The notes beneath the pieces were generated by a model that was given only the letters and a program-made list of their open reading frames with translations, was not told the origin of the DNA and searched no databases. Shown here piece after piece: positions 4,593-29,298 of a stretch of DNA of 64,000 bases (positions are counted from its first letter, which is position 1; the number at the start of each line of letters is the position of its first letter). Origin of the DNA: Actinomycetospora endophytica (GTDB taxonomy: Bacteria > Actinomycetota > Actinomycetes > Mycobacteriales > Pseudonocardiaceae); contig NZ_JAJNDB010000001.1 in the NCBI RefSeq assembly GCF_021026375.1, positions 1,364,001 through 1,428,000 on the forward strand, read 5' to 3'. Made by a program: the position numbers and the translations under genes.

Positions 4593-4692
4593 ACCGGGCA
4601 CGGAGCGTGGGCGTCACCGTGGCTCCTGCGCTGTCCGGGTGAAGCTGACGAGAGCGGTAACGAACGGCGGCCCCGGGACGACACACCACACG

Positions 4693-4744
4693 AGCCCCGT
4701 GGCGCTGCCGGACCCCCGACCTGGCAGAGCCACGGGGCTTCTTC
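4693..4744 (+). terminator. strong hairpin followed by a short U-rich tail
   Basis: AGCCCCGTGGCGCTGCC (4693-4709) pairs with GGCAGAGCCACGGGGCT (4723-4739) with one mismatch, and TTCTT follows. This is the best intrinsic-terminator shape in the window. It lies 100 bp after the AAA ATPase stop and 77 bp before the GroES-like gene, so it could end the ATPase transcript or a short untranslated RNA. Confidence 0.7.
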
Positions 4745-27515: not shown

Positions 27516-27745
27516 GAATCCTCCAGGGTCTCGGTTCGCCGAGTGTGGCCACGGCTCGCACACCAGTCAGTAGGTGAACGGCGGCGGTAGATGCCGGCCG
27601 ACTCGACTCTCCGGCCCAGCGATCCGTCACGAATTCCCCCGCGACGGGGAATCAGCTCGTCCGGTCATTCGGCTCACGAGCCCGGGCTCGCCGTCCGGCT
27701 CGTTCCGGCTGGTCACCGGGCGGGTCCCGGTGGGACAGTCGCCCC

Positions 27746-27796
27746 GTGTCCCGTTGCACGCAGTCCTGGTGGTGGTCGCCTTCCCGGCGACCGTGA
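27746..27796 (+). CDS. tryptophan leader peptide of trpS
   Basis: A 16-codon reading frame, MSRCTQSWWWSPSRRP, with three consecutive TGG codons at 27767-27775 and TGA at 27794-27796. It begins with GTG and ends 90 bp before trpS. The Trp run and the following alternative hairpins form the standard leader of a ribosome-mediated attenuator. A weak -10, GACAGT, lies 6 nt before the GTG, which would make the leader mRNA leaderless. Translation is inferred from the layout. Confidence 0.7.
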   Translation: MSRCTQSWWWSPSRRP

Positions 27797-27831
27797 CTGC
27801 TGCCCGCATCCGGCCGCCTCACGGCGGCCGG
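27774..27831 (+). promoter_or_regulatory. tryptophan attenuator: protector, antiterminator and terminator hairpins
   Basis: The 1:2 hairpin pairs GGTCGCC (27774-27780) with GGCGACC (27786-27792). The 3:4 terminator pairs CCGGCCGCC (27810-27818) with GGCGGCCGG (27823-27831). The 2:3 antiterminator pairs CCGTGA (27791-27796) with TCACGG (27819-27824), reinforced by GGC with GCC. Pairs 1:2 and 3:4 each exclude 2:3. A ribosome stalled on the Trp codons covers arm 1 and frees arm 2, so low Trp-tRNA allows read-through into trpS. The stems are seen; the switching is inferred. Confidence 0.65.
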
Positions 27832-27886
27832 CGCGACGACTCCTGACGCGCACGCGTGAGGTGGCCTCTCCCGAGAGGAACCCCTC

Positions 27887-29071
27887 ATGACGAACGTCCC
27901 GTCGTCCGATCCCTCGCTCGAGGCCCGCATCGCCGCGGACCCGCACCGGTTCCGTGTGCTGACCGGTGACCGCCCGACCGGAGCCCTGCACCTCGGGCAC
28001 TACTTCGGCACCCTCGCCAACCGGGTCCGGCTGCAGGACCACGGCGTCCAGACCTACCTCGTCGTCGCCGACTACCAGGTCATCACCGACCGCGACCTCG
28101 CCGGCGACCTGCCCGGCAACGTCCACGAGATGCTGCTCGACCAACTGGCCGCCGGGATCGACCCGGAGCGGGCGACGATCTTCACCCACAGTGCGGTCCC
28201 GGCCCTCAACCAGCTGCTGCTCCCGCTGCTGTCGCTGATCTCGGTCGCCGAGCTGCAGCGCAATCCCACGGTGAAGGCCGAGGCCGCGGCGAGCGGCACC
28301 CGGGCGATGAGCGGGCTGCTGCTGACCTATCCGGTGCACCAGGCCGCCGACATCCTGTTCTGCTCGGCCCATGTGGTGCCGGTCGGCCGCGACCAGCTCG
28401 CGCACCTCGAGGTCGCCCGAACCCTCGCCCGACGGTTCAACGACCGCTACGGCCGCGTCTTCACGGTCCCCGACCCCCTCGTCGGGGACGCCCCGGTCCT
28501 GCTCGGGATCGACGGCACGAAGATGAGCAAGAGCCGCGGGAACGCCATCGAGCTGCGGGCCACCGCGGACCGGACGGCTGCCCTCATCCGTCGGGCGAGG
28601 ACGGACGGCGTCCGACGCGTCACCTACGAGCCCGCGACCCGCCCCGAGGTCGCCAACCTGCTCGAGCTGGCCGGGCTCTGCCTCGGCGAGGAGCCCGAGG
28701 ACCTGGCGGACCGCATCGGGGACCGGGGCGCGGCCGGGCTCAAGGCGCTGGTCACCGATGCGGTCAACGACCACTTCGCCCCCTTGCGACGACGTCGGGC
28801 CGAGCTGGCGGCCGACGCCGCCGCCGGCGGGCTGGACGAGATCCTCGCCCGCGGGAACGACCACGCCACCCTGATCGCCGAGGCGAAGCTCGACGAGGTC
28901 CGCGCCGCCATGAACATGAGCTACCGCCGGTCGGCCCCGGCTCAGAAGGCGGAGTGCTCCACCTCGGAGAGCGCGAAGAAGTCGCGGATCAGGCCGACCG
29001 CACGGTCCGCGTCGAACGCCGTGCACGTGAAGACCACGACGGCGAGGAAGCGGCGCTCGGACCACACGTAG
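27887..29071 (+). CDS. trpS: tryptophanyl-tRNA synthetase, auxiliary type
   Basis: A 394-codon class I aminoacyl-tRNA synthetase. The HIGH-type motif is in TGDRPTGALHLGHYFG (residues 26-41) and the KMSKS motif is intact in GTKMSKSRGNAIE (about 206-218). The motif LTGDRPTGALHLGHYFGTLA resembles the second, often indolmycin-resistant TrpRS class rather than the housekeeping one. The family usually ends near residue 345; here the frame continues for about 45 extra residues (after MSYRRSAPAQ) because no stop occurs, and this tail is antisense to the SpeD-like gene. The Shine-Dalgarno GAGAGGA lies in a CCTCTC/GAGAGG hairpin (27864-27877). Expression is probably controlled by the Trp attenuator upstream. 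Confidence 0.9.
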   Translation: MTNVPSSDPSLEARIAADPHRFRVLTGDRPTGALHLGHYFGTLANRVRLQDHGVQTYLVVADYQVITDRDLAGDLPGNVHEMLLDQLAAGIDPERATIFTHSAVPALNQLLLPLLSLISVAELQRNPTVKAEAAASGTRAMSGLLLTYPVHQAADILFCSAHVVPVGRDQLAHLEVARTLARRFNDRYGRVFTVPDPLVGDAPVLLGIDGTKMSKSRGNAIELRATADRTAALIRRARTDGVRRVTYEPATRPEVANLLELAGLCLGEEPEDLADRIGDRGAAGLKALVTDAVNDHFAPLRRRRAELAADAAAGGLDEILARGNDHATLIAEAKLDEVRAAMNMSYRRSAPAQKAECSTSESAKKSRIRPTARSASNAVHVKTTTARKRRSDHT

Positions 29072-29298
29072 AGCGAGATGCCGGAGTCGATCAGCGGGAC
29101 GAACGCGTCGTAGCCCTCGTTGTCCGCGCGTCCCGCGCCGCCGGGGGCGTGGACGGTGGCCTCGCCGTAGGTCCGCAGCTCGAGGACCGCGGGCAGGTCT
29201 CGCAGGAAGTCCCGCACCACCGACTCGTCGACGTCCCGGGTGTAGAAGCCCTCCACCAGCAGCCGTTGGCGGGTGATGTCCGGGGCGAGGTCGCGCAC
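28942..29298 (-). CDS. SpeD-like (S-adenosylmethionine decarboxylase fold) protein, altered active site
   Basis: A 118-residue protein. The segment DSGISLYVWSERRFLAVVVF plus TC (residues 71-92) aligns with the pyruvoyl-forming core of SpeD (ES-H-IS-H-W..E...VDVFTC). Ser72 would supply the pyruvoyl group and Cys92 matches the conserved Cys (20 residues after Ser, as in the enzyme). The Glu before the Ser is Asp71, and the His needed for processing (five residues after Ser) is Tyr77. It may therefore be unprocessed or have a different activity. The GTG start is weakly supported. It overlaps trpS tail-to-tail by 130 bp. Confidence 0.6.
   Translation of the reverse strand: MRDLAPDITRQRLLVEGFYTRDVDESVVRDFLRDLPAVLELRTYGEATVHAPGGAGRADNEGYDAFVPLIDSGISLYVWSERRFLAVVVFTCTAFDADRAVGLIRDFFALSEVEHSAF

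Follow-up and report, generated by a model that had tools for sequence, protein, structure and literature searches.

Attenuation by tryptophan (Trp) leaders is a textbook RNA switch, and U-run terminators are often absent from high-GC Actinobacteria. For Streptomyces coelicolor trpRS1, a Trp leader attenuator was reportedly described by Vecchione and Sello in 2010. The closest described systems are the leaders of auxiliary genes for tryptophanyl-tRNA synthetase (TrpRS) in Streptomyces, namely S. avermitilis trpS2 (PMC1262725) and S. lividans trpL2/trpS (PMC8079986). As described in the relevant parts of these papers, they combine a Trp leader, competing hairpins and a second TrpRS, all of which are also found at the locus presented here. 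The S. lividans leader, again like ours, has no uridine-rich stretch, and it is reported to be transcribed leaderless (PMC8079986). Furthermore, indolmycin resistance has been reported for Streptomyces TrpRS1, at least in the pertinent sections of PMC9437257 and PMC6804068. The attenuators of trpE and the trp operon in Corynebacterium and Streptomyces share the UGG repeats and the alternative pairings 1:2, 2:3 and 3:4, but in the corresponding part of PMC1262725 they precede another gene and their terminators have poly-U tracts, which the leader described here lacks.

Other leaders set translation initiation. The anti-TRAP mechanism of Bacillus subtilis, for instance, rests on a terminating ribosome and is not known to involve a hub segment that can pair either with a hairpin arm or with a segment directed against the ribosome site. 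In this system (rtpA), a stall caused by uncharged tRNA-Trp determines downstream translation initiation, as we propose below, but the leader works together with a T-box, unlike ours (Chen and Yanofsky, 2003, 2004, as summarized in part of PMC11255114). In the B. subtilis trp operon under TRAP, one leader serves both termination and Shine-Dalgarno sequestration, which again parallels our proposal, except that the section concerned in PMC11255114 describes a Trp-binding protein as the switch, where we propose a stalled ribosome. Likewise, the translational ileS T-boxes of Actinobacteria place a hairpin over the Shine-Dalgarno sequence of an aminoacyl-tRNA synthetase gene and have no terminator; unlike the leader described here, they sense uncharged tRNA directly and have no leader peptide, according to the passage devoted to them in PMC1262725.

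Here we analyse the leader of an auxiliary-type trpS in a 64,000-nucleotide stretch of Actinomycetospora endophytica DNA, referred to as the window, whose numbering is used throughout. The most plausible reading of the region 27734-27889 is a Trp attenuator that works through the ribosome, a kind already known. It differs from the Streptomyces auxiliary trpS leaders by its three consecutive Trp codons (WWW), by a longer C-terminal part of the leader that overlaps a stem, and by a conserved segment 5, which goes unmentioned in the relevant parts of PMC1262725 and PMC8079986. With a probability of about 0.6, we propose that this region is a sensor of tRNA-Trp charging, a six-segment attenuator that would also, or mainly, gate translation initiation. 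Attenuation of trpS by Trp leaders is known from Streptomyces; our searches of open-licence PMC papers turned up no description of segment 5 or of a stall-driven hub that pairs with a hairpin arm or with such a segment.

Loci and tests

The comparison covers 111 loci: 3 congeneric ones, 28 others of the family (30 of 52 places) and 80 named ones (the best 80 of at least 527). Duplicates (L044, L152, L156 and L090, equal to L114, L120, L113 and L165, respectively) and long spurious frames (L053, L059, L097) were left out of the counts. By our rule, a hairpin follows the leader at 126 leader-bearing loci, and three others lack it (L049, L078, L212). In class A (68 loci, 24 representatives), the hairpin is followed by a U-run; in class B (58 loci, 40 representatives), at most two T occur in the 8 bases past it, the window having 0 T. 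Representatives are those with TrpRS sequences less than 80% identical (n=64). Hairpin arms were set by hand for six bulged loci (L075, L083, L091, L094, L101, L206), as was the start codon for L003, L024, L039, L041, L049, L110 and L121; L088, being too short, was left out of the test of pairing 3:5.

For a second set, two families were sampled, yielding 58 unseen loci, of which 52 were usable and 51 were kept. Those dropped had no leader (L214, L233, L235, L238, L252), no start (L277) or no Shine-Dalgarno sequence (L221).

The trpS gene and its leader frame

The gene at 27887..29071 (+) matches the TrpRS profile TIGR00233 with 222 bits (cut-off 177), and its product has its best PDB matches in 1yi8 (TrpRS) and 2a4m ('Tryptophanyl-tRNA synthetase II'), both of which we take to be from Deinococcus. 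The 6.98-Mb genome encodes a second TrpRS, which is 34% identical to that of the window. The window protein is nearer to TrpRS II than to the other TrpRS of its genome, which bears out the auxiliary type assigned to it in the first-pass annotation, a reading of the DNA without database searches. At its 3' end, the similarity to relatives stops near residue 360 of 394; the frame extends some 30-40 codons beyond the end of its relatives, overlapping a reverse open reading frame (ORF; 28942-29298, -) and apparently lacking the usual stop.

Upstream of trpS lies a leader ORF of 16 codons plus TGA, VSRCTQSWWWSPSRRP (27746..27796, +), which starts with GTG at 27746, stops with TGA at 27794-27796 and encodes MSRCTQSWWWSPSRRP. 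Direct reading confirms the frame as first annotated, including the three consecutive Trp codons at 27767..27775 (+), the putative stall site, where the congeners have two. Such a run of codons for the regulated amino acid within a short leader ORF is typical of trp-type attenuators. Within the limits of our scan (ATG or GTG start, stop at most 9 codons from the Trp run), no other short frame with WWW occurs on either strand of the 64 kb, and WW occurs in 5 frames.

This frame is conserved, as the first-pass annotation had demanded of a genuine leader. All three congeneric copies of the auxiliary trpS, those of the window and two congeners, are preceded by a short Trp-Trp leader, with WW in the same place in both congeners, and a WW or WWW leader precedes the related TrpRS at 71 of 111 loci among the matches listed. 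In the upstream regions of the housekeeping trpS of the genus, 1 of 18 was scored as having a leader, and that one frame enters trpS itself. The leaders recur in two forms: a short one ending in WWRS or WWPS and a stop, and a longer one, to which the window belongs, whose codons 3' of the Trp run build a stem. The leader fold is mildly stabler than its shuffles (z -2.1, 6/200). In 27640-27960, no Rfam family matched above its gathering score, even at E<=5, and on this ground a T-box or riboswitch reading of the leader was set aside.

The leader frame is probably leaderless in the window, with a transcript that starts at the leader GTG. A TANNNT motif precedes the leader start by 6-8 nt at 68 of 71 listed loci (6 nt in 46, 7 in 21, 8 in 1), a somewhat favourable count, given that the motif helped to pick the start where several in-frame starts were available. 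The control is its near absence elsewhere, with 7 hits in total at all remaining scanned offsets of the 71 loci; in the second set, it lies at 6-7 nt in 51 of 51. The three exceptions are the window and the two congeneric loci. In place of TANNNT, the window has GACAGT (27734..27739, +), a candidate -10 element 6 nt 5' of the leader GTG; a consensus scan of 27640-27960 returned no sigma-70 promoter.

Alternative pairings of segment 2

Segment 1 (27774..27780, +) and its partner 27786-27792 form a 7-bp protector stem (-12.7 kcal/mol), which folding placed at 27774-27792, just where it had been annotated. Segment 2 (27786..27793, +) can pair with segment 1 or with segment 3. The latter pairing, the conserved antiterminator 2:3, joins 27786-27793 to 27811-27818; it comprises 7 pairs and one A.C mismatch in the window and a full 7-bp match in both congeners (GGCGGCC and GGCCGCC). 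When partners were swapped between loci, which disrupts common descent along with pairing, z was -5.4 in class B (0/10,000) and -3.2 in class A (14/10,000), so that the stem covariation in relatives, named at first pass as a test, was found.

The antiterminator had originally been placed elsewhere, at 27791-27796 with 27819-27824. This pairing exists as a full 6-bp match in the window (-7.8) and belongs to the lowest-energy fold of 27784-27889 (-50.9), but it is peculiar to the window: it does not covary in the class-B swap (z +0.2, 5734/10,000), and just 4 of the 40 representatives can form it with 6 bp or more. The swap rules it out as a conserved antiterminator, and it may at best be specific to this locus.

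The spacing between the Trp codons and segment 2 is narrowly conserved. The distance from the first TGG to the start of segment 2 is 14-20 nt in 63 of 64 representatives (shuffles 28%) and 19 nt in the window. Given usual ribosome footprint sizes, stalling on either of the first two Trp codons would cover 27774-27780 and leave 27786-27793 exposed, and a ribosome at the leader stop would hide 27786-27793 and leave 27810 onward exposed. The leader thus has two further characteristics of trp-type attenuators, namely mutually exclusive, covarying pairings 1:2, 2:3 and 3:4, with the one mismatch in 2:3 of the window, and a distance from stall to segment 2 that would hide segment 1 and not segment 2.

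A terminator-like hairpin without a U-run

Segment 3 (27810..27818, +) is the hub of the leader, open to pairing with segment 2, 4 or 5. With segment 4 (27823..27831, +), it forms a terminator-like hairpin (27810-27831) of 9 bp and -20.6, whose loop UCAC (27819..27822, +) is the complement of GUGA, the 4 nt with which segment 5 begins. No U-run follows, with 0 T in the 8 nt 3' of 27831, and a terminator consensus scan found 0 sites in 27640-27960. Of the terminator annotated here at first pass, the hairpin stands, and termination is putative. Compared with the intrinsic terminator of trp-type attenuators, a hairpin plus U-run, the window thus has the hairpin only. The leader works like a ribosome-mediated attenuator, with putative attenuation of transcription.

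An ordinary transcription attenuator would be one way to understand the locus: 3:4 would terminate despite its missing U-run, or do so with the help of Rho, the antiterminator would form upon stalling, regulation would be confined to read-through, and segment 5 and the hairpin over the ribosome-binding site would be incidental. The strength of 3:4 in the window and the U-runs of class A relatives speak for this, and there is precedent in the leaderless S. lividans trpS leader, which has two hairpins, lacks a uridine-rich stretch and is called an attenuator in the part of PMC8079986 that deals with it. For Actinobacteria, the corresponding part of PMC1262725 likewise reports or predicts that trp genes and S. 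avermitilis trpS2 are attenuated. We nonetheless consider this explanation rather unlikely, given that the U-run is absent not just from the window but from its class, and that pairing 3:5 and the ribosome-site hairpin, described in the following, covary, which is not expected of incidental sequence.

Segment 5 as a further partner of segment 3

Segment 5 (27856..27866, +) is an additional conserved RNA partner that lies immediately 5' of the ribosome-binding site of trpS. It can pair with segment 3 and the loop or join the hairpin over that site. In the window, pairing 3:5 connects 27812-27822 with 27856-27866 through 11 bp, including one G.U, a match that 0 of 400 dinucleotide shuffles equalled. 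This complementarity was first spotted by eye in about 12 loci and tested afterwards; against shuffles, it reached p<0.05 in 23 and p<0.01 in 14 of 39 class-B representatives, so that 16 of the 39 miss p<0.05, and it did so in 6 and 1 of 24 in class A, respectively. One of the weaker cases is L162, a 69%-identical relative with a helix of just 7 bp (p 0.167).

Swapping partners, with the same proviso about common descent, changed the mean helix energy in class B from -19.2 (native) to -14.1 (z -9.2, 0/10,000), and gave z -3.1 in class A (21/10,000). With arm 4 excluded and class B thinned to below 72, 66 and 64% identity (n=21, 11 and 7), 0, 0 and 10 of 10,000 swaps, respectively, did as well. 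The loop bases alone extend the class-B helix by 1.87 nt, compared to 0.77 nt with exchanged loops (0/1,000). This continuation cannot be explained by copying of arm 4, and covariation with segment 5 would explain the loop sequences of the U-poor hairpins. By contrast, 2:3 makes little use of the loop (0.35 bases on average vs 2.30 in 3:5) and is the weaker pairing, with a mean of -15.2.

Segment 5 ends 15-27 nt before the start codon in 25 of 40 class-B representatives (shuffles 28%). Selection of these 25 placed loci required 3:5 to span 7 bp or more; within the helix, each of nine central positions is paired in 21-25 of them and shows several types of pair. When the window RNA 27784-27889 was forced into alternative folds, 3:4 came to -48.7, 3:5 to -44.8 and 2:3 to -43.8. 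Because equilibrium favours 3:4 and the free fold given above, 3:5 would have to win by timing in the window.

A hairpin over the trpS ribosome-binding site

The second possible partner of segment 5 is a hairpin (27855..27889, +; -17.2 kcal/mol) that closes the trpS ribosome-binding site, with the Shine-Dalgarno-like GAGAGG of segment 6 (27873..27878, +), and the start codon. The first-pass annotation had described the layout as complete, a description that missed both the leaderless promoter-to-start spacing and the two segments that link the 3:4 hairpin to this site. We tested the region from -40 to the trpS start codon. Exchanging hairpin halves costs 2.6 kcal/mol in class B (z -7.5, 0/10,000); the same exchange gave 1061 of 10,000 in class A, 133 at 60 loci without a leader and 8266 at 18 housekeeping trpS. 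Accordingly, fold z values below -1.65 occur in 16 of 40 class-B representatives, compared to 2 of 24 in class A, 7 of 60 without a leader and 0 of 18 housekeeping genes. At least 3 bases of segment 5 are common to 3:5 and this hairpin in 18 of the 25 placed loci. Two other tests gave less: a simpler and stricter one for an ungapped Shine-Dalgarno helix was weak (p<0.05 in 6 of 40 class-B representatives, swap 39/10,000), and a search of the whole spacer for the best duplex with the Shine-Dalgarno zone, loops allowed, gave a noisy picture, with p<0.05 in 17 of 71 and a median p of 0.22. The boundary between the classes is not clean, because class A shows some 3:5 signal and loci without a leader peptide show some ribosome-site signal.

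The U-poor hairpin and the covarying ribosome-site hairpin would also fit a leader that acts on translation alone, in which 3:4 never terminates, the mRNA is always full-length and the stall just opens the ribosome-binding site. The translation of anti-TRAP under tRNA-dependent ribosome stalling provides a precedent, as described in the respective section of PMC11255114. Yet 3:4 is strong throughout class B, as expected if it also acted on RNA polymerase, and class A relatives of this trpS resemble real terminators; hence, we regard action on translation alone as quite unlikely and continue with the proposed six-segment switch, in which both levels may be served.

The second set of loci agrees with this proposal for the most part. 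All 51 loci belong to one family, that of an Oerskovia genome, and as Oerskovia was among the loci that prompted the 3:5 idea, they are new sequences, not a wholly new lineage; within this scope, 3:5 reaches p<0.05 in 43 of 51, the end of segment 5 falls 15-27 nt 5' of the start codon in 49 of 51, and the 3:5 swap yields z -9.7 (0/10,000). Exchange of the loops reduces their contribution from 2.89 to 1.84 (0/5,000). The ribosome-site hairpin is weaker than in the first set (swap z -2.9, 28/10,000; fold z < -1.65 in 10 of 51). After thinning to 12 representatives below 80% identity, the values were 0/10,000 for 3:5, 3/5,000 for the loop and 5/10,000 for the ribosome-site hairpin. Most of these hairpins are U-poor, with at most two T following in 35 of 51 and at least four in 5 of 51.

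A proposed switch acting on translation initiation

Comparison with relatives supports the Trp codons, their spacing to segment 2, the -10 spacing, pairings 2:3 and 3:5, and the ribosome-site hairpin. From these parts, together with the assumed ribosome footprints, we infer the transcription start, the order of switching, the extent of termination and the physiological sign, the last (on when starved) because of the role of the gene and the reported indolmycin link of Streptomyces TrpRS1. The leader would keep a backup TrpRS off until Trp charging fails. As long as charged tRNA-Trp is plentiful, a ribosome at the leader stop would cover segment 2, allowing 3:4 to form, and the newly made segment 5 would fold over the trpS ribosome-binding site. 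Upon Trp starvation, a ribosome stalled on the Trp codons would hide segment 1, and segment 2 would hold segment 3. The emerging segment 5 could then grab the loop bases left free by 2:3 and take over segment 3, and the resulting 3:5 helix would both block the 3:4 hairpin and leave the trpS ribosome-binding site open. The switch would thereby act at translation initiation, together with or in place of transcription termination.

More tentatively, and at somewhat less than even odds, the U-poor Trp leaders of Actinobacteria, that of the window included, may share this design: their hairpin would chiefly be a selector for translation, and the loop-first strand exchange from segment 2 to segment 5 would amount to a ribosome-driven toehold switch. 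The alternation of segment 5 offers a testable way of routing the read-out of a stall to translation initiation. If it holds true, U-runs would be the wrong target in searches for actinobacterial leaders, and anti-ribosome-site segments the right one.

Copies and origin of the auxiliary trpS

The auxiliary trpS occurs in 3 of 18 congeneric genomes and is absent from 15, and because of this distribution, horizontal gain or repeated loss appears likely. In a quick tree, the window TrpRS groups with copies from Cellulomonadaceae, Geodermatophilaceae, Jiangellaceae and Promicromonosporaceae (SH-aLRT 90, below the level that the program stars), and the other listed Pseudonocardiaceae copies are placed apart from it, among class-A relatives that include Streptomyces and Actinomadura. 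Both other congeneric genes are damaged: in G002 (L004), the match breaks past residue 161 and resumes near residue 295 in another frame, and in G008 (L003), about 43 residues are gone in frame. Both retain the Trp leader and hairpins, their deletions lying near the C-terminal half.

This state of the gene raises the question of whether the leader could have arisen by chance or have degenerated, its WWW frame being a coincidence within a GC-rich spacer. Selection may be relaxed in a genus in which most members do without the gene and two of three copies are damaged, and the -10 element and 2:3 of the window are imperfect. Against this, the leader and its pairings are conserved across families, and 3:5 of the window surpassed every shuffle, so that we judge such an origin very improbable and retain the proposed charging sensor.

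Across the 111 listed loci, a leader is present in 65 of 71 genomes with at least two TrpRS, compared to 6 of 40 whose one TrpRS is of the auxiliary type, although 3 of these 6 are MAG records and may be incomplete. In five of the 6 multi-TrpRS genomes without a Trp-Trp leader, its position is occupied by a single-Trp leader, which would bring the count to 70 of 71. We set this association aside as support, as it comprises too few independent changes on the tree (5 for the leader, 2 for the copies); of four independent pairs, 1 points the same way, 0 against and 3 show no difference. Several Pseudonocardiaceae genomes (G142, G215, G279 and others in genus code g26) have three TrpRS genes, and one has four. 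Elsewhere in the window, at 4688-4744 (+), there is a match to the Rfam F6 small RNA, a family named for M. tuberculosis, with 55.2 bits (gathering score 46).
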